This document shows, piece by piece, positions 5,092-53,340 of a stretch of DNA of 64,000 nucleotides. The position numbers and the translations under genes were made by a program. Origin of the DNA: Bacteroidaceae bacterium (lineage in GTDB: Bacteria; Bacteroidota; Bacteroidia; Bacteroidales; Bacteroidaceae); NCBI GenBank assembly GCA_017622495.1, contig JAGAQY010000031.1:1-64000 (forward strand), in the 5' to 3' direction. The notes beneath the pieces are model-generated. The model ran no database searches and had not been told where the DNA came from. It saw nothing but the letters and a program-made list of their open reading frames with translations. Positions within the stretch are counted from its first letter, which is position 1. The number at the start of each line of letters is the position of its first letter.

Positions 5092-5234
5092 GTTATTTTA
5101 ACGATTTATGATTTATGATGAACGTGGAACGATTAACGATGAACGTGGAATGATTAACGATTAACGTGAAATGATTAATGGCAACTACACCCTAAACACT
5201 ACACTCTACACTCTAAACTCTAAACACTAAACAA

Positions 5235-5866: not shown

Positions 5867-6045
5867 CCATTATTCTTTGTCATGCTGAAACGAAGTTCGC
5901 CGCCCGTAGGGGCCAAAGGCAACGCATGTGAAGCATCTCGTAATGGACTCTGCCACCAATTCTGCGAGATCCTTCGCTGCGCTCAGGATGACAAAATCAC
6001 ATTTTGACTTTACCCTTTTGTCAATATTGTAGGAATCCTCTAAGC

Positions 6046-33228: not shown

Positions 33229-33338
33229 AATTAAATATTTGCGAGAGGATAGACTATTGAAACATAAATTATTAAGACATCTTTTTAGTGTGATTTTAAC
33301 ATCCGTTTCTCTATTTCTGCTTGTCGTTTTTATTTGCT

Positions 33339-33395
33339 GTTCGCGAAGAGCAGCGCGGCTGTTCGCGAAGAGCAGCGCGGTCGTTCGCGAACGGC
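33339..33395. repeat. 22-bp tandem repeat with TTCGCGAA core, two units
   Basis: Units begin at 33339 and 33361, with a partial third from 33383. It occupies the same place as the three-unit array at 2359 in the other composite element. Confidence 0.85.
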
Positions 33396-33827: not shown

Positions 33828-35564
33828 TTATAGCTCACAACTCACAACCTGCACGTTGCCCCGCATATCGGTCACCTTGATTTCTACATGGTGACGGCCG
33901 GGGCCGATGCCTTCGGCACGGAGGTCGCAGGTGAGGCGGGCATTCTTGCTGCTATACTTGAAGAGCACCCAGCGGCCATCTATCGTGCCGCGATAGTCGC
34001 GGATGCCGGTCTCGGCATCGGCAATGCGGCACACTATCCTACCCTGCTTGCGCCACGAGGTGCTGCCTATGGGAGTAATCTTGGGTGCTATGGTATCGGC
34101 ACATACGGTGTAGCTGCCCAGTTCGGTGATGTTGGCGGTAATGCGGCCATACTGGTAGGTGCCTCCGCAATAGGTGCGGCGCTTGCCATCGACACGGGCC
34201 ACGTAGAGTTTGGAGTCATCTACGGACTCACTCTTGTGGGTAGGCAATGTGATCTCGGCAGCACGGCGCAAGGGGATGCGTGTGGTAGTGAGCTGGTAGA
34301 TGGGGGCTTGGTCGCTCTCGGAGGGCAACACGTGGTAGTCGAGCTCCACATCATCGAACAGCGTGCCTTGCGGCATCCATAGCTCGAAGCCCTGCGCATA
34401 GAAGCGGCTGTCGCGCGAGGCATCCATGAGGTAATAGTAATTGGGCAGGCGACTGGGTATCTCCATACGCTTGCCACGCACCACGAAGCGATAGACGGAG
34501 CGGTTGCCATAGAGGTCCTCGAGCTCATAGCGGAAGTGGTAGTCGCGCTCCTCATCGATGGTGACCCATCCGCGCTGCTCATCGGCACGGAGCATACGCA
34601 GCTCGTTGTTCTCGGCTATGGAGGCACGCATATACCAGCGGCCTGTGGTGCGCTGCTCGGCATAGTCGGCCCATGAGTTGATGAGGCGGTTCTCATCAAA
34701 GGAGAAGCGGTCTACATCGCTGCTGCTCACAAGCTTATCGTCCACATAGAGGCGCACGTAGCGTACGCCGTAGTTGTTGTGGGTGCCATTCATATAGTCG
34801 TTGGCCGAGATGGCGGCGGAGATGCGGCCCCAACAATAAAAGACAAGGCCCCCCTCGTTCCCCCCAAGGGGGGATGACACGCTCGGCTCTTTCTTTTCAA
34901 CACTCATTTCGTTTGTCTCAAGATTCTCCCATTGAGAGACACTCAAGACCTTCCCCCCTTGGGGGGATAAGAGGGGGGCCCCATATACCATAATACGTGT
35001 GGCGCGTGGAGCGATATTATCGGTAATCTTGTCCTTATAGAACTGTAGCGGGTCGATGGGTTCATTGGTAGCGGTCTTGCGAATCTCCATGTGTAGATGG
35101 GGACCGAAGGAGTAGCCTGTGTTGCCGGCGTATGCCACGACCTCGCCTTGGCGGAAGCGAAACTCATCGGGGCCAAACTCCAGCGTCACGGCAAAGGCCT
35201 GCTCGGCGTATTGTTTCTGACGAACCAGCTCGGCAATCTCGGGCAGGAAGCGGTCGAGATGGCCGTGCACGGAGGTATAGCCATTGTCGTGAGTGAGATA
35301 CAGCGCATTGCCATAGCCACCGGGAGTGACCGTCACCTTGGAGATGTAGCCATCGGCAATGGCAAGCAGCGGCTTGCCCACCACGCCCTGGGTCTTGAAG
35401 TCGAGACCTCCGTGGAAGTGGTTGGAGCGGAGCTCTCCGAAGTTACCACTCAGATAGAGCGGGAAGTCGAACGGTGCGCCGAAGCGCACTTCTTGGCCAC
35501 GAAGCGGCATCCACCCAAGGAGCAGCCCCAGTAACGACACCATAACGAGACGAGAACAGTTCAT
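33828..35564 (-). CDS. M23 family metallopeptidase
   Basis: A 578-residue exported peptidase of the LytM type that cuts peptidoglycan cross-bridges, or an inactive relative. Signal peptide to about residue 23. The catalytic domain (about 30-180) has the zinc ligands in SNHFHGGLDF and GPHLHMEIR, with the HGHLDRF His between. The remaining 390 residues are beta-rich (YDLYGNRS, TDMRGNVQ). A GC-rich inverted repeat of about 130 bp sits in frame at 34848-34981, giving the odd stretch SPQGGKV...SPLGGNEGG in the protein. The start overlaps the flippase stop by 4 bp (ATGA), so the two are translationally linked. Confidence 0.9.
   Translation of the reverse strand: MNCSRLVMVSLLGLLLGWMPLRGQEVRFGAPFDFPLYLSGNFGELRSNHFHGGLDFKTQGVVGKPLLAIADGYISKVTVTPGGYGNALYLTHDNGYTSVHGHLDRFLPEIAELVRQKQYAEQAFAVTLEFGPDEFRFRQGEVVAYAGNTGYSFGPHLHMEIRKTATNEPIDPLQFYKDKITDNIAPRATRIMVYGAPLLSPQGGKVLSVSQWENLETNEMSVEKKEPSVSSPLGGNEGGLVFYCWGRISAAISANDYMNGTHNNYGVRYVRLYVDDKLVSSSDVDRFSFDENRLINSWADYAEQRTTGRWYMRASIAENNELRMLRADEQRGWVTIDEERDYHFRYELEDLYGNRSVYRFVVRGKRMEIPSRLPNYYYLMDASRDSRFYAQGFELWMPQGTLFDDVELDYHVLPSESDQAPIYQLTTTRIPLRRAAEITLPTHKSESVDDSKLYVARVDGKRRTYCGGTYQYGRITANITELGSYTVCADTIAPKITPIGSTSWRKQGRIVCRIADAETGIRDYRGTIDGRWVLFKYSSKNARLTCDLRAEGIGPGRHHVEIKVTDMRGNVQVVSCEL
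34848..34981. repeat. in-frame GC-rich inverted-repeat insert in the M23 gene
   Basis: Arms of about 32 bp, left GGCCCCCCTCGTTCCCCCCA and onward, right ending AGAGGGGGGCC, are inverted with a few mismatches around a 70-bp centre. The frame stays open through it, adding about 44 codons rich in Pro, Gly and Ser. Confidence 0.75.
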
Positions 35565-37081
35565 CGGGCATTCCTCCTAACTTTGACTAACAGACGATGA
35601 ATGAAATCGGTATTCCGATACAAGAAACGAATGGAAAACACGAAAGACATTGCCACGAAAAGTGTGCCCAAAAGTACATATAGCCAACCTGTAGTGGTGA
35701 CTACAGCTATCACAGTGCACGCAATCAATGGAAGCTGCTTCGCAAAGAGCCGCCACACGCGACCGCTATAATGGAAATCATAACAGATAAGCGAGATTAT
35801 CCATACGCTAAGCCAATCAAACACACCCGAAATCAACATTCCTATACCCAATCCCGGCAGTCCATAATACATGAAGCCTCCTATCATGATAGCTACCATG
35901 AAGGTATATGAGACCACCTCCTGCAGGAGGAATATCCGAGAATCTTTCTTGGAAAGACAGAGATAGGCCGTGGGCAACATCATGGCCTTGAAGAAGAGGC
36001 CCATCACACCCCATTGCGCCATCTCGACGAGTGGCATAAACTCTACATCGAGCAACAGACGAGGCACTAAGGGAAGGCACACGGCAAAGCATATAATAAG
36101 CGGAGTGATGAGGACCATCAGCAACTCGACCTGGGTATTCACGAGCCCGTTGGAACGTGTCTTATCTTTGTTGACAGCCGACAGACGGGGGAAGAACTCA
36201 CTGTCGAGTGCAGCAAAGGCCAACATGCTGAGGTATGAAATCAACAGATTGCCATACGAGTAGCATCCCACCTCACCCTCATTGCCATGAGCAAAGAGAT
36301 AGATGGATACCAAATAGTAGGCACCCGAATTGAGCAGTCCGGCCAACGTATAATTCAGTCCCTGGCGGATAATATAGAGTCCATCAACGATGACGGCTTT
36401 AGAGAAAAGTGCCACCCGATAGGGGAATACCTTGAACGAATGCCAGCAAGCCACGGCAAGCAGCCCCACTGCTGTGAGCAACAGGCTGGGTATTATACCC
36501 GAGAATCCCCAGAAGTAGTAGCATGGGACGGCAATCACCAACATCACCACAGCACTAAGCAGCTGATACCAAGCCACACGCCTCAGCATACGGACACCCT
36601 TGAGCACAGCCACCTCACCCATCATCAGAGCCGAGCAGCCAACCGTGAGCGAAAGCATACGAAACATGTTGGTATAAGCAGCGTCACCCTCGAAACTCCA
36701 ACGGCTAAGTAGAGGAGCGAGACAAAAGAACAGCAGGGTACCGAATACGGCCAGCCACAAGGACCACGAGCGCACCACTTTGATACCATACCCTACGGCA
36801 TCCGTATCGCCACATTCGCCACGCTGCTCCGAGATGGCCTGCACAGCGCTATATGAAATACCCAGGTCGGTAGCTTTCTTGCCGAGTTCGGTGGAGCGGT
36901 TATACACTTCCAGCACTCCTACCCCTACAGGGCCTAACAGGCGCGACACTATACTGACCTTCAACAAGGCTATCAGACTCACCAGACCCTGTACGCCACC
37001 GAAGATACCGGCATATTTCAGGATACCCTCGTATCCTGAGTCTTTGGCCGTAGTATTGTCTTGCTCTTGCTTCACGTGCAT
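35561..37081 (-). CDS. O-antigen/capsule flippase (Wzx-like)
   Basis: A 506-residue inner-membrane protein with about 12-14 spans, of the MATE/polysaccharide exporter superfamily. The first segment (LKYAGIFGGVQGLVSLIALLKVSIVSRLLGPVGVGVLEVYNR) is typical of Wzx O-antigen flippases, which move undecaprenyl-linked repeat units across the membrane. It is read away from the glycosyltransferase operon, and both start at the same palindromic promoter region at 37100-37147. It is followed with a 4-bp overlap by the M23 gene. Confidence 0.9.
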   Translation of the reverse strand: MHVKQEQDNTTAKDSGYEGILKYAGIFGGVQGLVSLIALLKVSIVSRLLGPVGVGVLEVYNRSTELGKKATDLGISYSAVQAISEQRGECGDTDAVGYGIKVVRSWSLWLAVFGTLLFFCLAPLLSRWSFEGDAAYTNMFRMLSLTVGCSALMMGEVAVLKGVRMLRRVAWYQLLSAVVMLVIAVPCYYFWGFSGIIPSLLLTAVGLLAVACWHSFKVFPYRVALFSKAVIVDGLYIIRQGLNYTLAGLLNSGAYYLVSIYLFAHGNEGEVGCYSYGNLLISYLSMLAFAALDSEFFPRLSAVNKDKTRSNGLVNTQVELLMVLITPLIICFAVCLPLVPRLLLDVEFMPLVEMAQWGVMGLFFKAMMLPTAYLCLSKKDSRIFLLQEVVSYTFMVAIMIGGFMYYGLPGLGIGMLISGVFDWLSVWIISLICYDFHYSGRVWRLFAKQLPLIACTVIAVVTTTGWLYVLLGTLFVAMSFVFSIRFLYRNTDFIHRLLVKVRRNAR

Positions 37082-37099
37082 GTTTTATTATAGAAGATA

Positions 37100-37147
37100 C
37101 AAAAATAGTGCAAAATTTCGATTTAGCGAAATTTTGCACTATCTTTG
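37100..37147. promoter_or_regulatory. divergent promoter with a 16-bp palindrome
   Basis: ATAGTGCAAAATTTCG at 37105-37120 and its exact inverse at 37127-37142 flank a 6-bp centre. The plus strand has TATCTTTG at 37140-37147 (toward the glycosyltransferases); the reverse strand has TATTTTTG at 37100-37107 (toward the flippase). The two -33 regions (TTTCG) lie inside the palindrome arms. Either a shared operator or simply two back-to-back promoters is possible. Confidence 0.7.
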
Positions 37148-37168
37148 CGAGTATTGACAGACACAGCC

Positions 37169-38137
37169 ATGCAACTGAGCATCATCATACCCGTATACAA
37201 CGTAGAGCAGCACCTCGTGCGATGCATACAATCGGTCCTAGCACAAGGGCTGACCAACTACGAGGTCATACTCGTTGACGATGGTTCGACCGATCAGAGC
37301 GGAACGTTATGCGATGCCTTGCAGAGTGAGCATAGTTGCATCAGGACAATACACCAAGCCAATGGCGGTCTCAGCGCTGCACGCAACACAGGAATCGGAA
37401 TTGCCAAGGGAGCATACATCACCTTCGTTGACTCCGACGACGAACTGTCTCCCAACACCCTGAAGAGCAATCTGGATTATCTCATCAGCCACCCCGAAGT
37501 GGACATGCTGGAATATCCTGTCGAGGTACATGCCGATAGCGACCGGGCATACCGTCTCAGCTTTCCCGACGAGACACAGCATACCGATATCTTTGCCGAC
37601 TGGATACGTCGCGAGGGGTACCTCCATTGCTATGCCTGGAACAAGATCTATCGCCGGGAGCTGTGGAGCGAGACACGCTTCCCCGCAGGCGCCTACTATG
37701 AGGACACTGCCGTGATGCCCGCCATCGTGCGCCAATGCCGTGGCATACACTACTCGAGCCACGGATGCTACCGCTACATCATGCACCCGGGCACTATCAC
37801 GACAAGCTACAGATACGACAAGCAACGCCAACTCTTCGAGAACAACCATCGCCTCTATAAAGAGATAAAGGAGAATGATACGCTACGCACCGAAGCCATG
37901 CATCTGTGGATCTGTTGCCTCAACCTGCTCATCGACATGGGACGATGCACCGATGCCGACCAGGCCGACTATCACTACATGATTGACGAGGCCGATGCGC
38001 ACCACCCCTCATACAAGGAACTGATCAAAGCTGCGCCCGACATTGCTACACGCGCCAAGCTACTGCCTCTTCCGCTCATGGGGCTAAAAGCCTATTGCCG
38101 TTCATACACGACTCTCACCCAACCTCTGCAACCATGA
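37169..38137 (+). CDS. glycosyltransferase family 2
   Basis: 322 residues from ATG 37169 (MQLSIIIPVYNVEQHLVRC), the usual start of the GT2 family. The GT-A fold motifs are present: VILVDDGSTDQSG (nucleotide binding), NGGLSAARNTGI, and the metal-binding FVDSDDELSP, then CYAWNKIYRRELW and the acceptor-side YYEDTA. It transfers a sugar from a nucleotide donor to a lipid-linked acceptor in the cytoplasm. It is first of three transferase genes that each overlap the next by 4 bp. The donor and acceptor cannot be read from sequence. Confidence 0.9.
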   Translation: MQLSIIIPVYNVEQHLVRCIQSVLAQGLTNYEVILVDDGSTDQSGTLCDALQSEHSCIRTIHQANGGLSAARNTGIGIAKGAYITFVDSDDELSPNTLKSNLDYLISHPEVDMLEYPVEVHADSDRAYRLSFPDETQHTDIFADWIRREGYLHCYAWNKIYRRELWSETRFPAGAYYEDTAVMPAIVRQCRGIHYSSHGCYRYIMHPGTITTSYRYDKQRQLFENNHRLYKEIKENDTLRTEAMHLWICCLNLLIDMGRCTDADQADYHYMIDEADAHHPSYKELIKAAPDIATRAKLLPLPLMGLKAYCRSYTTLTQPLQP

Positions 38138-39201
38138 TAACCTTCATCGTCACCACTTACAACCTGGAGGACTGGCTGCTACGTCGCTGCCTCGAGAGCA
38201 TCACCGCACAGGGGATTGACCGCGAAAGCTACGAAATCATTGTCGTGGATGACGAGAGCATCGTAAGTCCGCAGCATATCATTGATGAGTTTGCCCAAAA
38301 GGCCAACATCACACTTTATATTCAGGAACATGCACGCCAAGGTGCTGCACGCAACCTTGCCTTGCAACACGCCAAGGGAGAGTGGATACAGTTTGTCGAT
38401 GGTGACGACTACCTATACACTGGCGCCATTGCTCCCCTGCTGAAGTTGGCTGAGGAGAACAACTTGGACCTACTCACCTTCGGTTTCAGAGAGGTAGGAG
38501 ATGAAGCGGGAGCAACCACTGACCACGGAAAGGGATCCCCCAGCGATACATCCCAGCCGAATGGCAGTAACAATTCTCAATACTCAATACTCAAACGAAG
38601 TTCGCTGGCCGAAGGGAAAAGCAATTCTCAATTAGAGAGCGGCGACTCCTACATGCTCCATCATAACCTCTTCGGCAGCTGCTGCACCCTACTCTTCCGC
38701 CGTAGCCTCTGCGAGGAGGAGTGCTACGGATCACCACTGAGATTCACCGAGAATATCTACATCGAAGATGAGGAGTTTATCACCAAGCTCGTATGGAGAG
38801 CCCAACGTATGGCCTCAACAAACGCCATAGCATACGCTTACTATCAACGTCCCGGCTCTACCGTACACAACCGCAGTCGCGAACATACCGACGAGCTGTT
38901 CCGCAACTACTTTATAGTACTGAAGCGCCTGATAGATTTTGAGAGAGAGGTTGTAGCCAAACCCCACGATGGACTCACACGCAAGATACGCTTCTTAGCC
39001 ATCGACATACTGCGCCGCGCACTGCGCGAACCTGACTGGAAGGACAGATGGTACCGTTCGGCCATGGAGCTGCTCAGGCTGAACCTCTACCCTATCCCAT
39101 CGGCCGACTATTCATGGAAGTACCGTATCTTCCGCCTTTTAGCACAGAGAAGCCTCGGGCGCCACGTACTGAGAATCATTGAAAAAAGACAACAGAGATG
39201 A
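38134..39201 (+). CDS. glycosyltransferase family 2, with in-frame insert
   Basis: 355 residues from ATG 38134, which overlaps the previous stop by 4 bp. GT2 motifs: MITFIVTTYNLEDWLLRRCL, IIVVDDESIVS, RQGAARNLALQHA, FVDGDDYLY and, later, IEDEEFITKLVWRA. Between FREVGDE (near residue 125) and YMLHHNLFGS there are about 40 residues rich in Ser, Asn and Gln that do not look like the family. The DNA there carries CAATTCTCAATACTCAATAC-type repeats, so this looks like an accepted insertion. The gene remains open throughout. Confidence 0.87.
   Translation: MITFIVTTYNLEDWLLRRCLESITAQGIDRESYEIIVVDDESIVSPQHIIDEFAQKANITLYIQEHARQGAARNLALQHAKGEWIQFVDGDDYLYTGAIAPLLKLAEENNLDLLTFGFREVGDEAGATTDHGKGSPSDTSQPNGSNNSQYSILKRSSLAEGKSNSQLESGDSYMLHHNLFGSCCTLLFRRSLCEEECYGSPLRFTENIYIEDEEFITKLVWRAQRMASTNAIAYAYYQRPGSTVHNRSREHTDELFRNYFIVLKRLIDFEREVVAKPHDGLTRKIRFLAIDILRRALREPDWKDRWYRSAMELLRLNLYPIPSADYSWKYRIFRLLAQRSLGRHVLRIIEKRQQR
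38569..38636. repeat. in-frame CAATTCTCAA-type insert in a glycosyltransferase gene
   Basis: CAATTCTCAATACTCAATAC begins at 38573 and a second CAATTCTCAATT lies near 38622, around a GC-rich middle. The words match the insert at 42909-43028. The exact edges are not clear. Confidence 0.5.
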
Positions 39202-40304
39202 AGATATTACTCCTCGGCGAATATAGCAACGTACACTGGACACTGGCCTGCGCACTGCGCAAGCTGGGACACGAGGTTTGCGTGGTATCAAACGGTGACG
39301 AATGGAAAGGTTATCCTGCCGATATATCACTCATACGCAAGCCCGGCCGATGGGGAGCCATCACCTATCTATATAAGGTTCTGAGACTATTGCCCAAACT
39401 GAGGGGATACGATGTGGTGCAACTTATCAACCCCGTACACTTCATCGACCTCAAGGCCGAACGCGGTATTCGCATCTACGACTACTTGCGCCAACACAAC
39501 AAGCGCGTGTTCCTCGGCGCTTTCGGGTATGATTATTATCTGGTACACGACAGTGTGGTGAGGCGCACCTTGCGCTACTGCGACTTCTATACTCCTACTC
39601 AAGAGGTACATCACGAGTGGAACACTGCCAACGAGCACGATTGGCTGCACACCTTCAAGAAGGAGGCCAATATACACATTGCCGAGACATGCGACGGCAT
39701 CATCAGCGGACTTTACGAGTACGACGTGGCCTACCGCCCCTACTTCCCCGAAAAGACTACGTTTATACCCTTCCCTATCGAACTGGAGCATACAGAAACA
39801 GAGATACGAATCCCGAGAAGGCAAGGCCAGAAAATCCGTTTCTTCATCGGCATACAGCGCCATCGTACCGCACTGAAGGGAACAGACATCATGCTGCGTG
39901 CACTTGAGCGCATCGTTGCCGACTACCCCGACAGGGCCGAGATGATAAAAGCAGAGTCTGTACCCTTCAATCAATACAAGGAGATGATGCGCAGCAGCGA
40001 TGTGCTGCTCGACCAGATTTATTCATACACTCCTGCCATGAATGCCCTACTGGCCATGAGCCAGGGACTAATACTGGTAGGAGGAGGTGAAGAGGAGAAT
40101 TACGCCATTCTTGGCGAAGACGAGCTGCGCCCCATCATCAATGTGCAACCCGACGAGGAGGACGTATACCGCCAGCTCGAACAACTGGTGCTGCACCCCG
40201 AGCGCATAGACCAACTCAAGCGCGACAGCATCACCTACATCCGCCGTCATCACGACAGCATCAAAGTGGCCAAGCGGTACCTGGAGGCTTGGAATAAAGC
40301 ATAA
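39198..40304 (+). CDS. glycosyltransferase, GT4-like (GT-B fold)
   Basis: 368 residues; start overlaps the previous stop by 4 bp. The N-terminal half is a Rossmann-type domain (MKILLLGEYSNVHWTLACALRKLGHEV); the C-terminal half has the GT-B donor site pattern: IRFFIGIQRHRTALKGTDIMLRALERI, MRSSDVLLDQIYSYTPAMNALLAMSQGLILVGGGEEE. It is probably a GT4 relative that acts late in repeat-unit assembly. A perfect terminator hairpin follows, ending the three-gene operon. Confidence 0.82.
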   Translation: MKILLLGEYSNVHWTLACALRKLGHEVCVVSNGDEWKGYPADISLIRKPGRWGAITYLYKVLRLLPKLRGYDVVQLINPVHFIDLKAERGIRIYDYLRQHNKRVFLGAFGYDYYLVHDSVVRRTLRYCDFYTPTQEVHHEWNTANEHDWLHTFKKEANIHIAETCDGIISGLYEYDVAYRPYFPEKTTFIPFPIELEHTETEIRIPRRQGQKIRFFIGIQRHRTALKGTDIMLRALERIVADYPDRAEMIKAESVPFNQYKEMMRSSDVLLDQIYSYTPAMNALLAMSQGLILVGGGEEENYAILGEDELRPIINVQPDEEDVYRQLEQLVLHPERIDQLKRDSITYIRRHHDSIKVAKRYLEAWNKA

Positions 40305-40310
40305 AGAAAA

Positions 40311-40334
40311 AGACTCAAGCAAATGCTTGAGTCT
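40311..40334. terminator. terminator between glycosyltransferase operon and tRNA cluster
   Basis: AGACTCAAGCA at 40311-40321 and TGCTTGAGTCT at 40324-40334 are exact inverses around two bases. It can serve the rightward operon and the leftward tRNA operon. Confidence 0.8.
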
Positions 40335-40340
40335 TCATTT

Positions 40341-40415
40341 TGGTAGCGCCTACGGGAATCGAACCCGTGTTCCATGCGTGAGAGGCATGTGTCCTAGCCG
40401 CTAGACGAAAGCGCC
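40341..40415 (-). tRNA. tRNA-Glu (anticodon CTC), copy 1
   Basis: A 75-nt gene with CCA encoded. The acceptor GGCGCTT/AGGCGCT has two G-U pairs, and the anticodon stem CATGC/GCATG encloses CTCTCAC. It is identical to the copy 122 bp away. Confidence 0.92.
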
Positions 40416-40462
40416 ATCTTCGTAAAAGCCCCTTATGTTTATCCACCCCGGGGCGGGTGTTT

Positions 40463-40537
40463 TGGTAGCGCCTACGGGAATCGAACCCGTGTTCCATGCG
40501 TGAGAGGCATGTGTCCTAGCCGCTAGACGAAAGCGCC
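40463..40537 (-). tRNA. tRNA-Glu (anticodon CTC), copy 2
   Basis: Identical in sequence to the copy at 40341-40415, with CCA encoded. It lies between that copy and tRNA-Ser in the same leftward operon. Confidence 0.92.
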
Positions 40538-40551
40538 ATTTGCAAAAGGAG

Positions 40552-40638
40552 CGGAAGCTGGGGGATTCGAACCCCCGGTACGGTAACCCGTACGGCAGTT
40601 TAGCAAACTGCTGGTTTCAGCCACTCACCCAAACTTCC
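40552..40638 (-). tRNA. tRNA-Ser (anticodon GCT)
   Basis: An 87-nt class II tRNA with the long variable arm (CCGTACGGGTTACCGTACCG). The anticodon stem GCAGT/ACTGC encloses TTGCTAA. The acceptor GGAAGTT/AGCTTCC has one G-U pair. CCA is not encoded. Confidence 0.93.
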
Positions 40639-40669
40639 TTGGATTTGCGCCGTTCCCTTTTTGCGAGTG

Positions 40670-40701
40670 CAAAGGTAGAAACTTTTTTCCGACTTAACAA
40701 A
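40670..40701 (-). promoter_or_regulatory. promoter of the tRNA-Ser-Glu-Glu operon
   Basis: The reverse strand reads TTTG (40698-40701), a 20-bp spacer and TACCTTTG (40670-40677), 32 bp before tRNA-Ser. Confidence 0.7.
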
Positions 40702-40805
40702 CAATTCTCTATTTTTTTCATACCTTTATGGAAATTTTCATGAAGATACAGCACTCGCAGTAAGAAATATTCAACCAAGCTTGATATTTCTCGCTCGTTT
40801 ATTTG

Positions 40806-40813
40806 TATCTTTG
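40806..40813 (+). promoter_or_regulatory. -7 box upstream of the FdtA-like fusion gene
   Basis: TATCTTTG preceded by AAGCTTGATATTTCTCGCTCG, which matches the repeat upstream of ispE (AAGCTTGAcTTTTCGCTCG). The upstream TTG at 40781 is 22 bp away. Confidence 0.55.
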
Positions 40814-40893
40814 TATTAAAATTTTTCAAAATACACGATTTACGTTTTTTTCACGTTATACAAACGAAGCATATACCTATATATAATATAAGC

Positions 40894-42261
40894 ATGAGCG
40901 AACACGACAATTTACCACGCGGCTGCCGCATCATCGATTTCCCCGAATTCATGGATGCTCGCGGAGGACTCTCCTTTGCAGAGAGCGAAGGCCATATCCC
41001 ATTTGCCGTAGAACGCGTGTTCTGGCTATACAACCTTTCCGGTTGCCATTCTCGTGGCGGACACTCGCACGGACACTGCGCCCAGGTGGTAGTTGCCGTG
41101 CATGGGGCATTTGACCTTCTTCTCGACGACGGCACCACGACGGCCACCATACACCTCGACTCGCCCCATCGTGGCGTGCTTATTGCACCCACTGTATGGG
41201 ACGAACTCAAGAATTTTGCCGAGGGCACCGTAGTCATGGTAATGGCCTCACACCATTTCGATGCAGAAGACTACATCAGCGACTATGAAGAATATCGAAA
41301 CGAACTGGTAGAGCTGCGCACATACTCTCCCTCCCTTGCGGCAGAATGGGACGCTTTTGTCGACAAAGCCAAGAATAGCACCTTCCTACATAAGCGTAGC
41401 TATATGGACTATCATGCCGACCGCTTCACCGACTGTTCGCTCATGTTTTACAAGCACGACGAACTCATCGCCCTATTGCCCGCCAATCACGTGAAAGAAC
41501 GACAGGCCGTGTATTCACATGGCGGACTCACTTATGGCGGACTCCTATTGTCAGAAAACATTACGGCCATAGAGGCAATGCAAGCCATGGCCTGTGCCAA
41601 AGAATGGATGAGCAAGGCACTCAACGCACAATATTGGTACTATAAACCCACGCCACACATCTATCACCGCATGCCCGCCGAGGAGGATCTGTATGCATTG
41701 TTCAGACACGACGCCACCATAGTGACACGCGCCGTATCCTCAGTCATCGAGAATGCCTACCGACTGCCTCTCCACAAGTCGCGCCGCCATGGCGCCAACA
41801 AAGCCCGCAACAACCACGTCACTTACCATGAGAGCAACAACCTGTATGCTTTCTGGAAGATACTTGACGAGAGATTGCGCACACGACACAACAACAAGCC
41901 GGTACATACCGTAGATGAGATGATACGTCTGCAAGACTCATTCCCCGAACAGATACGCCTATTTGTCGCTACGATAGATGACGAGGTAGTGGCAGGTACA
42001 CTCATATATGAGACAGAGCAGACGGCCCACACACAATACATAGCCTCTACCGAGCAAGGACGTTCGGTAAGAGCACTTGACGGACTCCTCAAATACCTGA
42101 TAGAAGAGGTTTTCGCCCACAAGCGCTATTTTGATTTCGGCACCTCCATGGAACCTGGCAGCGACCACATCAGTGAAGGGCTATTCATGCAGAAAGGCGA
42201 ATTCGGAGCACGCACCATTGTGTATGACACCTACTTGATTCGATTGACAATTGATAATTGA
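40894..42261 (+). CDS. FdtA-like ketoisomerase fused to FemAB/GNAT-like acyltransferase
   Basis: 455 residues in two domains. Residues 1-135 are a cupin of the WxcM/FdtA type: CRIIDFPEFMDARGGLSFAE, RVFWLYNL, and the His cluster SRGGHSHGHCAQVVVAVHGAF; known members turn dTDP-4-keto-6-deoxyglucose into the 3-keto sugar. Residues 145-455 look like an acyltransferase of the FemAB/GNAT kind (FLHKRSYMDYHADRF, HGGLTYGGL, FVATIDDEVVAGTLIYE, YFDFGTSMEPG). Next comes an aminotransferase gene, so together they could make a dTDP-3-acylamino-3,6-dideoxyhexose such as Fuc3NAc or Qui3NAc. Sugar identity and donor are inference. Confidence 0.82.
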   Translation: MSEHDNLPRGCRIIDFPEFMDARGGLSFAESEGHIPFAVERVFWLYNLSGCHSRGGHSHGHCAQVVVAVHGAFDLLLDDGTTTATIHLDSPHRGVLIAPTVWDELKNFAEGTVVMVMASHHFDAEDYISDYEEYRNELVELRTYSPSLAAEWDAFVDKAKNSTFLHKRSYMDYHADRFTDCSLMFYKHDELIALLPANHVKERQAVYSHGGLTYGGLLLSENITAIEAMQAMACAKEWMSKALNAQYWYYKPTPHIYHRMPAEEDLYALFRHDATIVTRAVSSVIENAYRLPLHKSRRHGANKARNNHVTYHESNNLYAFWKILDERLRTRHNNKPVHTVDEMIRLQDSFPEQIRLFVATIDDEVVAGTLIYETEQTAHTQYIASTEQGRSVRALDGLLKYLIEEVFAHKRYFDFGTSMEPGSDHISEGLFMQKGEFGARTIVYDTYLIRLTIDN

Positions 42262-42401
42262 CAATTCCGCAGCGCAGCGAGAGCAGAGTCAAATTTATTT
42301 GAGCTATGCCGAGCAAGCAAGGAATCTTAATGCGCAGCATTATAATTTACAAATCACAATTACCTACCGAGAGTTATTTTCACGTTATCGCCACCATACT
42401 T

Positions 42402-43616
42402 ATGATCAAGTTTCTCGACATACAAGCCATGAACGCTGCCCACGGAGCAGAGATTGAGGAGGCCGTACTGCGCGCCACACGCTCGGGGTGGTATCTCCGT
42501 GGCGAGGAGACCCGCCGCTTCGAAGAAGCCTATGCCCGCTATATCGGCTGTCGCCATGCCATCGGCTGCGGCAATGGGCTCGATGCGCTGCGCCTCATCT
42601 TCCGTGCCTATATTGAGATGGGAGTGCTACACGAAGGCGAAGAAGTCATCGTACCGGCCAACACCTACATCGCCAGCATCCTTGCCGTCACCGACAACCG
42701 CTTGAAGCCCATCTTCGTGGAGCCCAATGCCGAGACACTGCAAATCGACGACACCCTGATAGAGCAAGCCATCACACCCCGCACACGCGCCATCATGATT
42801 GTTCACCTCTACGGCCGCTGCGCCTATACAGAGCATATAGGTAACCTGTGCCAACAGCACAACCTTTTGCTCATCGAGGACAATGCGCAAGCGCATGGAT
42901 GCATGAGTAAATTGAAAATTGAAAATGAAAAATTGAAAATGGAAGGCTACAATCATTCGGACGACAATTCCCTCCATCAGGTTCATCTGGAAGAGAATTT
43001 TCAATTTTCAATTCTCAATTCTCAATTTAAGCGTACTGGTTCACTCGGTCACGCCGCAGGCCACAGTTTCTATCCGGGTAAGAACCTCGGTGCGCTGGGC
43101 GATGCCGGTTGCGTCACTACCGACAACGATGAGTTGGCAGCAACGGTGCGTGCTTTAGGCAACTACGGCTCTTCAGAGAAGTACGTGTTCCGCTACACCG
43201 GCTACAACAGTCGCATCGATGAGCTGCAAGCTGCCGTGCTCACGGCCAAGCTCCCCCACCTCGACGACGACAACCGCCACCGAGCCAGCATTGCCGAACT
43301 CTATTATAAAGGTATAGCCAACCCGCTCGTGCGTCTGCCGCGCCATGTCGCTCCCGAGCACAATGTCTACCACCTCTTCCCTATCTTCAGCGAAGAGCGT
43401 GACCGCCTACAGCAGCACCTCAAGGAGTGTGGTATCGAGACCCTCATCCACTACCCCATCCCGCCCCATCAGCAGGAGTGCTACAGGGAGTACGAGCACC
43501 TGTCGCTTCCCATCACCGAGAAGATTCACTGCACCGAGCTATCGCTGCCTATAAGCCCTGTTCTTAGCGAGAGTGAGGCAAAGAGAGTAATAGAGGCCAT
43601 CAACTCTTTCAAATAA
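42402..43616 (+). CDS. FdtB/QdtB-like sugar 3-aminotransferase, with in-frame insert
   Basis: 404 residues from ATG 42402 (MIKFLDIQAMNAAHGAEIEEA). A pyridoxal-phosphate enzyme of the DegT/DnrJ/EryC1 family: GCGNGLDALRLIFRAY, EVIVPANTYIASI, LLIEDNAQAHGC and SFYPGKNLGALGDAG with the PLP lysine. It would aminate the 3-keto sugar made by the preceding fusion protein, using glutamate. Between AHGC and RTGSLGHAAGHS, where close relatives have a few residues, there are about 40 extra residues encoded by an AT-rich inverted repeat (42909-43028). The insert lies at a surface-type loop and all family motifs before and after it remain. A terminator follows. Confidence 0.88.
   Translation: MIKFLDIQAMNAAHGAEIEEAVLRATRSGWYLRGEETRRFEEAYARYIGCRHAIGCGNGLDALRLIFRAYIEMGVLHEGEEVIVPANTYIASILAVTDNRLKPIFVEPNAETLQIDDTLIEQAITPRTRAIMIVHLYGRCAYTEHIGNLCQQHNLLLIEDNAQAHGCMSKLKIENEKLKMEGYNHSDDNSLHQVHLEENFQFSILNSQFKRTGSLGHAAGHSFYPGKNLGALGDAGCVTTDNDELAATVRALGNYGSSEKYVFRYTGYNSRIDELQAAVLTAKLPHLDDDNRHRASIAELYYKGIANPLVRLPRHVAPEHNVYHLFPIFSEERDRLQQHLKECGIETLIHYPIPPHQQECYREYEHLSLPITEKIHCTELSLPISPVLSESEAKRVIEAINSFK
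42909..43028. repeat. in-frame AATTGAAAAT inverted-repeat insert in the aminotransferase gene
   Basis: The left arm at 42909-42940 (AAATTGAAAATTGAAAATG...) and the right arm at 42997-43028 (...CAATTCTCAATTCTCAATTT) are inverted over 32 bp with a few mismatches. The frame stays open, encoding KLKIENEKLKME on the left and NFQFSILNSQF on the right. Confidence 0.8.
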
Positions 43617-52873: not shown

Positions 52874-52961
52874 TTTCTATCTGCAGCCGGAAGGATTTCT
52901 ACTTGCAGGTAGAATAGTTTCTATTTGCAGTTAGAAATATTTCTACTTGCAAGTAGAAACA
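52874..52961. repeat. four 22-bp tandem palindromes
   Basis: Units at 52874, 52896, 52918 and 52940 are each exactly 22 bp. The last is the perfect palindrome TTTCTACTTGCAAGTAGAAA; the others differ at a few positions but keep TTTCTA..TGCAG..AGAA. The period equals about two turns of B-DNA. Confidence 0.85.
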
Positions 52962-53340
52962 TTTTTCTCTTTGCCCAACAAAAATAATCTATTGTTCCAT
53001 TTTTTGCAAACGAACCTCACAAAATGGCAAGTCGCTTCGCCCTTGCTGGCGGCTTAGCCGCCGACGCGGAAGAAGCGTCGGTTCTTGGACAAGCCAAGCG
53101 CAAGCATTACGACGAAGGAAACTTCAGTTTCCCCGAGGAGTGCAGCTTGCTGCATATCTCAGCCGGATGGTAAACGCGAGAGTAACGATGCGTTCTTCGT
53201 GAGATTGCCTTTAGCCCCTTCGGGCGGCGAACACGTTTCGTGAGATCTGTGTGGGAAAGACAAATCAACATGAAGGAAAAAATTCGCGAGATTCGCGAGA
53301 TTCGCGTGAAGATGAATCAGTAGAATATCACACCCCAACA
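52962..53340. other. intergenic stretch with remnants of repeats
   Basis: No gene is supported. It carries hairpins GGCGGCTTAGCCGCC (about 53048-53062) and CGACGC/GCGTCG just after, a remnant of the CTCACACAGATC family (53237-53253) and a triple GCGAGATTC (53283-53310). Confidence 0.5.

Follow-up and report, generated by a model that had tools for sequence, protein, structure and literature searches.

Different in-frame repeat cassettes occupy the same intragenic sites in closely related Bacteroidaceae genomes

Short repeat cassettes of several unrelated families are dispersed through the genome of a Bacteroidaceae bacterium, where they lie in frame inside genes of unrelated function, and close relatives hold different families at one and the same site. 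The copying process itself has no rule of three, and it is inside genes that the frame is kept. The studied genome (G000) amounts to 3.18 Mb in 76 contigs and is 87% complete; the window, that is, the whole stretch of DNA analysed, covers 64,000 nucleotides of its contig C26. Its nearest named relatives, as judged by the aminotransferase described below, are ruminant-gut Bacteroidaceae MAGs. The initial annotation had noticed three such inserts; the fixed position of the sites and the exchange of their content among close relatives go beyond what it had envisaged.

Three cassettes within polysaccharide genes

A full cassette of family A is carried by the gene of a DegT/DnrJ/EryC1/StrS aminotransferase (42306..43616, forward strand), an ORF with a Pfam DegT match and with 7n63 and QdtB among its relatives. 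The insert is a 122-bp inverted repeat, whose 33-nt arms are 88% complementary and consist of heptamers: AATTGAR in the left arm and its reverse complement in the right one. In the left arm (42908..42940, forward strand), the third unit is altered to AATGAAA, so that an in-frame TGA is avoided. The right arm (42997..43029, forward strand), made of TTTTCAATT / TCTCAATT heptamers, is free of stop codons in all frames. Between them lies a spacer (42941..42996, forward strand) that is homologous but diverged in G004, whose aminotransferase loop contains an orthologous, diverged copy of the G000 cassette.

Residues 201-239 of the aminotransferase are unmatched in solved relatives, the best of which, 7n63, passes from residue 164 to 166 at this place. 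The loop counts 70 aa, compared with 32-33 aa in 57 of the 68 named homologues parsed. Within the genus, it has no insert in G011 and G013, a family B-like palindrome in G003 and G008, half of one in G010 and a heptamer fragment in G012. Bacteroidales outside this close circle carry short inserts of their own in this loop, several of them heptamer runs, for instance CAATGGT in Prevotellaceae HUN156 and MN60, which stem from two separate genome projects, and GTTAGAG in one Bacteroidales MAG. A different palindromic insert, with CACAGTGTAACACTGTG words, is seen in the loop of a distant Bacteroidales MAG (L164). An AlphaFold2 model computed with 23 homologues predicts an intact fold for the G000 protein (mean pLDDT 88); its sole low-confidence part, residues 173-207 (pLDDT below 50), is predicted to be a loop between two strands.

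In the gene of an M23 peptidase (33828..35564, reverse strand; 578-aa ORF, Pfam Peptidase_M23), with orthologues in genus relatives and beyond, a family B paired palindrome of 134 bp (34847..34980, reverse strand; inverted repeat) reads APLLSPQGGK...SSPLGGNEGG in place of the native loop. In relatives, the two strands that flank the cassette are connected by a native stretch, and since the cassette substitutes for it, the net gain of ~11-20 aa remains below the 45 codons of the repeat. The cassette, together with ~20 bp alongside, is about 99-100% identical between G000 and G013, and the gene around it is mostly 68-85% identical. This near-identity breaks off no more than ~8 bp away from either edge of the cassette, a pattern that constitutes the clearest sign of recent movement. 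Between G000 and G006, identity shifts along the gene from 95-100% to ~65-84%.

The third cassette, in a family 2 glycosyltransferase gene (38095..39201, forward strand; ORF, Pfam Glycos_transf_2), is a decayed family A array with a nested core. Tandem Repeats Finder (TRF) delimits a heptamer array (AATTCTC/CAATACT; ~38570..38633, forward strand) that is split by the 28-bp core AAACGAAGTTCGCTGGCCGAAGGGAAAA. The corresponding protein segment is 76 aa long in G000 versus 49-68 aa in four relatives. The same core was found at two places in G018, one within the aminotransferase cassette and the other upstream of hemW. A relative of it (AAACGAAGTTCGCCGCCCG...) is also present at position 5888 of the window, and another nested core, AACTCCGTTGAAGTTGCT.CGCTCGGCAGAGCCTGCAAGCAG...CTCGC, was observed within heptamer arms at L329, L333, L029 and L006.

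Working from the sequence alone, the initial annotation had claimed that each of these three genes contains an extra repeat stretch in frame, with family motifs on both sides. Both claims held, as the ORFs are open through the repeats and the proteins are continuous, with a family match on each side of the insert. For the same reason, the possible refutation that the inserts lie at assembly joins does not hold. As to absence from homologues, the DegT insert is indeed lacking in most of them, and the M23 and glycosyltransferase segments are longer than those of relatives; the M23 insert as a pure addition held only in part, a native stretch being replaced there. The suggestion that the same DNA words occur elsewhere in the genome was borne out for both families A and B. 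The count of three in 8 kb turned out to be understated, these being three among dozens of sites genome-wide.

Repeat families and exchange at fixed sites

Several families, labelled A to E, were distinguished. Family A consists of inverted heptamer arms and its words occur at ~50 places in G000, while family B, with ~20 copies, consists of paired GC palindromes, mostly of 79-85 bp. Family C is made of GAGAACTCN nonamers and families D and E of other heptamers; these last three were named by eye from the alleles and not clustered. Chance is excluded for A and B, whose further G000 copies match at E ~1e-11 to 1e-7. The inventory of G000 rests on searches rather than on base-by-base reading, and the site counts are lower bounds.

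Almost every full B copy of G000 is located within a long ORF and uses one reading frame per orientation, giving the peptides APLLSPQGGK...LPLGGG.EGA or PL.TSPKGE...SSPLGGNEGG. The recurrent peptides that the cassettes encode in a preferred frame also include KLKIEN...PDGNNSQFSILNSQL. Between B copies from unrelated genes and species, identity amounts to 86-94%, and B-like peptides were detected in 10 of 151 genomes of the family, in 4 genera and partly in short frames. The family A peptide was found in none of ~294 other genomes sampled from the order, so that the word itself is local. Many of the copies lie in housekeeping genes, such as those of valyl-tRNA synthetase (ValRS), MetH, an AcrB-type pump and a P-type ATPase; the gene of a glycogen synthase-like protein is a further host. 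Cassettes also occupy the joints of gene fusions: hisD-hisC (L042) and thiE-thiD (L012) each read as one fused ORF, whose two parts meet at a repeat cassette.

Where A elements lie between genes (L009, L016, L177 and L178), they start directly at the preceding gene's stop codon, and their other end often coincides with, or lies close to, the start codon that follows. The window also contains tandem arrays. Two of them (2359-2433 and 33336-33391) share a 22-bp repeat (GTTCGCGAAGAGCAGCGCGGTC) that probably represents one more dispersed family. Further arrays, at 52874-52964 and 5098-5233, are composed of 22-bp TTTCTACTTGCAGGTAGAAAT palindromic units and of 21-bp and 7-bp repeats (ATGATTAACGATGAACGTGGA; CTAAACT).

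For comparison of sites, the flanks of G000 sites were joined and used as queries against relatives, after which the sequence lying between them was read. At no fewer than 15 intragenic sites, the corresponding position in another genome is occupied by a different family or is almost vacant. These are the sites of DegT, M23, MetH, HisD-HisC, ValRS, P-type ATPase, glycogen synthase-like protein, ThiE-ThiD and AcrB, as well as those of the genes in L005, L029, L032, L033, L040 and L044. Flanks are often 90-100% identical, and 92-100% for most sites of G002 and G006. Thus, these protein segments are exchanged much faster than the surrounding genes change. The intergenic sites L024 and L010, followed by genes which, from their protein starts, we take to be efp and hemW, also show swapped content.

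Several sites retain traces of the exchange. At L044, an A cassette is common to G002, G006 and G018, and the B cassette found there in G000 starts inside the leftover of an A arm, which requires replacement in place. At L040, the B cassette of G000 and the heptamer cassette of G006 are equal in length and have identical left and right junctions. The L029 site is near-empty in G002, which retains just a scar, and at L034 and L038 a B element stands where native residues were. The ValRS and HisD-HisC sites are occupied in nearly every relative examined. The relatives compared at replaced sites are incomplete drafts or metagenome-assembled genomes; no tree was built, and the polarity of the swaps is inferred from few species.

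Preservation of the reading frame

The initial annotation had left two possibilities for the maintenance of frame: an insertion process that itself works in threes, or selective survival of such events alone. A modulo-3 check of insert lengths decides for selection. Inside genes, whenever two compared alleles differ in length, the difference is a multiple of three (32 of 32 comparisons; 23/23 distinct values), versus 15 of 43 (14/35 distinct) at intergenic sites, as chance predicts. The difference is significant by the Fisher test (p 6e-10; 8e-7 for distinct values). Comparisons within one site are not independent, and the alleles of relatives were not picked for openness.

The composition of family A arms was also compared between coding and non-coding contexts. 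Three consecutive intact AATTGAR units produce a TGA in every frame. Arms with three intact units were found in 0 of 9 coding-strand intragenic cases versus 19 of 37 intergenic ones (p 0.006), and in 8 of 20 antisense arms (p 0.03 against the coding strand). Since intergenic lengths follow no rule of three and coding arms are devoid of the stop-making units, selection keeps the frame, and insertion in multiples of three is rejected.

Possible modes of exchange and relation to known repeats

We propose that the cassettes are non-autonomous, hairpin-forming elements of several unrelated families that reside in permissive sites, and we favour, by a modest margin, their exchange through repair at hairpins. 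These sites comprise surface loops, domain linkers, joints of fused genes and intergenic gaps. A resident hairpin may render its site fragile; a break or stalled fork would then delete the hairpin, at times along with native sequence, and repair would copy in a hairpin repeat taken from a different genomic location, a step that is inferred and has not been observed. Selection would afterwards eliminate out-of-frame or stop-bearing products. It is the replacement in place, the remnants, the nested cores and the loss of native residues that lead us to infer repair at a hairpin with ectopic copying. The encoded peptide is probably tolerated rather than needed. Two points could speak against this proposal: near-universal occupancy of the ValRS and HisD-HisC sites might mean selection for presence, and the exactness of the sites leaves transposase site preference or import of alleles by homologous recombination unexcluded. 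A bolder reading, which we consider possible but less probable than not, sees here a self-perpetuating cassette exchange without a dedicated transposase, in which hairpin repeats create fixed fragile sites within and between genes and are themselves superseded there by copies of unrelated hairpin repeats of the genome. Housekeeping proteins would thereby acquire a rapidly changing set of in-frame loops and linkers, and fused genes a changing set of joints.

Among the alternatives, transposition of REPIN or MITE type remains possible. Here, a RAYT-like single-strand tyrosine transposase would copy hairpins in trans, only in-frame insertions in tolerant loops would survive, and the same few loops would be hit by different families. 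In its favour, family B has paired inverted palindromes of REPIN size, its copies keep their high identity across unrelated genes and species, and 7 of the 19 genus genomes, G000, G002 and G006 among them, have a Y1 transposase gene. No target-site duplication above the level of shuffled pairs was detected at 22 B copies, which also fits single-strand transposition; a DDE-type MITE is rejected on the same absence. However, the search did not detect a Y1 gene in G005, G008, G012 and G018, genomes that are incomplete but show swapped cassettes, and no A or B elements lie beside the Y1 gene of G000 in the stretches read. This limited distribution and the lack of adjacent elements speak against RAYT as the mover without excluding it. 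Moreover, the words of A-type arms are variable and their ends are not fixed, and native sequence is replaced, not merely interrupted. Simple slippage of low-complexity DNA is rejected in view of the inverted arms, shared cores and dispersed copies.

It is unlikely, though it cannot be dismissed, that the cassettes are old in separate lineages and are traded between species by homologous recombination of host genes. The jumps in M23 identity between G000 and G006 imply that recombination is active, and the M23 cassette is almost identical in G013. Yet the near-identity with G013 ends so close to the cassette on both sides, the A-arm remnant of L044 cannot be obtained without replacement in place, and the source of the differing alleles would stay unexplained. 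We regard as improbable a role of the inserts as selected linkers, serving the protein or the mRNA (hinge, mRNA hairpin), in which any sequence would do provided that it acts as a spacer. Some insert is found in every relative read at the HisD-HisC and ThiE-ThiD joints and in the MetH linker, and intergenic sites often retain some element, but several sites are empty or nearly so in relatives (DegT in G011 and G013; L034, L038 and L029) and most Bacteroidales aminotransferases have no insert. Finally, an assembly or binning artefact, with repeats joining unrelated reads, is practically ruled out. One contig of G018 (C229, L066) does join the 5' part of the aminotransferase to a clpB-like 3' part via a repeat cassette, a junction due to misassembly or ectopic recombination, and repeats of this kind can mislead assemblies. 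Nevertheless, the compared sites have both flanks in one gene across several independent assemblies with the frame kept, the aminotransferase inserts of G000 and G004 are orthologous and diverged, and heptamer inserts in the same loop come from the separate HUN156 and MN60 projects.

Among known systems, Rickettsia palindromic elements (RPEs) comprise several families of short palindromic repeats that lie in frame in unrelated genes and encode a recurrent peptide, and intragenic REPs have been described as in-frame palindromic repeats in Opitutus terrae, Rickettsia and others (PMC10969869, PMC3733652). The likeness to RPEs put forward by the initial annotation held: a palindromic element is in frame within ORFs of unrelated function, with a recurrent peptide and a preferred frame. 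By contrast, the sequences and lengths differ (79-85 bp for B versus ~150 bp given for RPEs), unrelated families swap at one loop in close relatives, arms are made of tandem heptamers, and the hosts are Bacteroidaceae. By analogy, and with no sequence comparison to RPEs, these elements appear to work like RPEs, but we class them as neither RPEs nor REPs. Intragenic REP dimers, which code for 20-30 aa inside ORFs (PMC3733652), and REPINs (GTAG and CGTC families, RAYT) resemble family B in having paired inverted palindromes with a spacer. They differ in that no consistent Y1 transposase accompanies the present elements, which involve many sites and several families; by inspection, the GTAG/CGTC tag is absent at the visible ends, B ending in GGCC or GCCC and A arms being AATTGAR heptamers. 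Different REPs at about the same site have one precedent, in recB of two Xanthomonas species (PMC3733652).

Cyanobacterial STRRs are heptamer tandem repeats. TAACTGA heptamer repeats are based on one word and lie mostly between genes, with few cases in Bacteroidetes (PMC4679880). Both share with our elements the 7-bp units, often directly 5' of start codons, but they are mostly direct and intergenic, whereas here the arms are inverted, in frame within genes and turning over. Bacteroidales also harbour the BrickBuilt MITE of Porphyromonas gingivalis, a miniature repeat that is reported to be strictly confined to the gaps between genes (PMC10969869). The initial annotation knew of no in-frame case in Bacteroidales, and no description of such repeats was found in the open-licence literature searched. 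What is new, as far as this literature shows, is that such repeats occur in Bacteroidales, that they belong to several families and that they are exchanged at fixed sites.

Cassette loops and joints are a potential source of error in gene annotation, orthology, indel-based trees and assembly. Furthermore, these elements offer a test bed, in common ruminant-gut bacteria, for how mobile repeats enter coding genes and add loops. Because close relatives differ at many near-identically flanked sites, the rate, mechanism and cost of insertion are measurable, which few systems allow.
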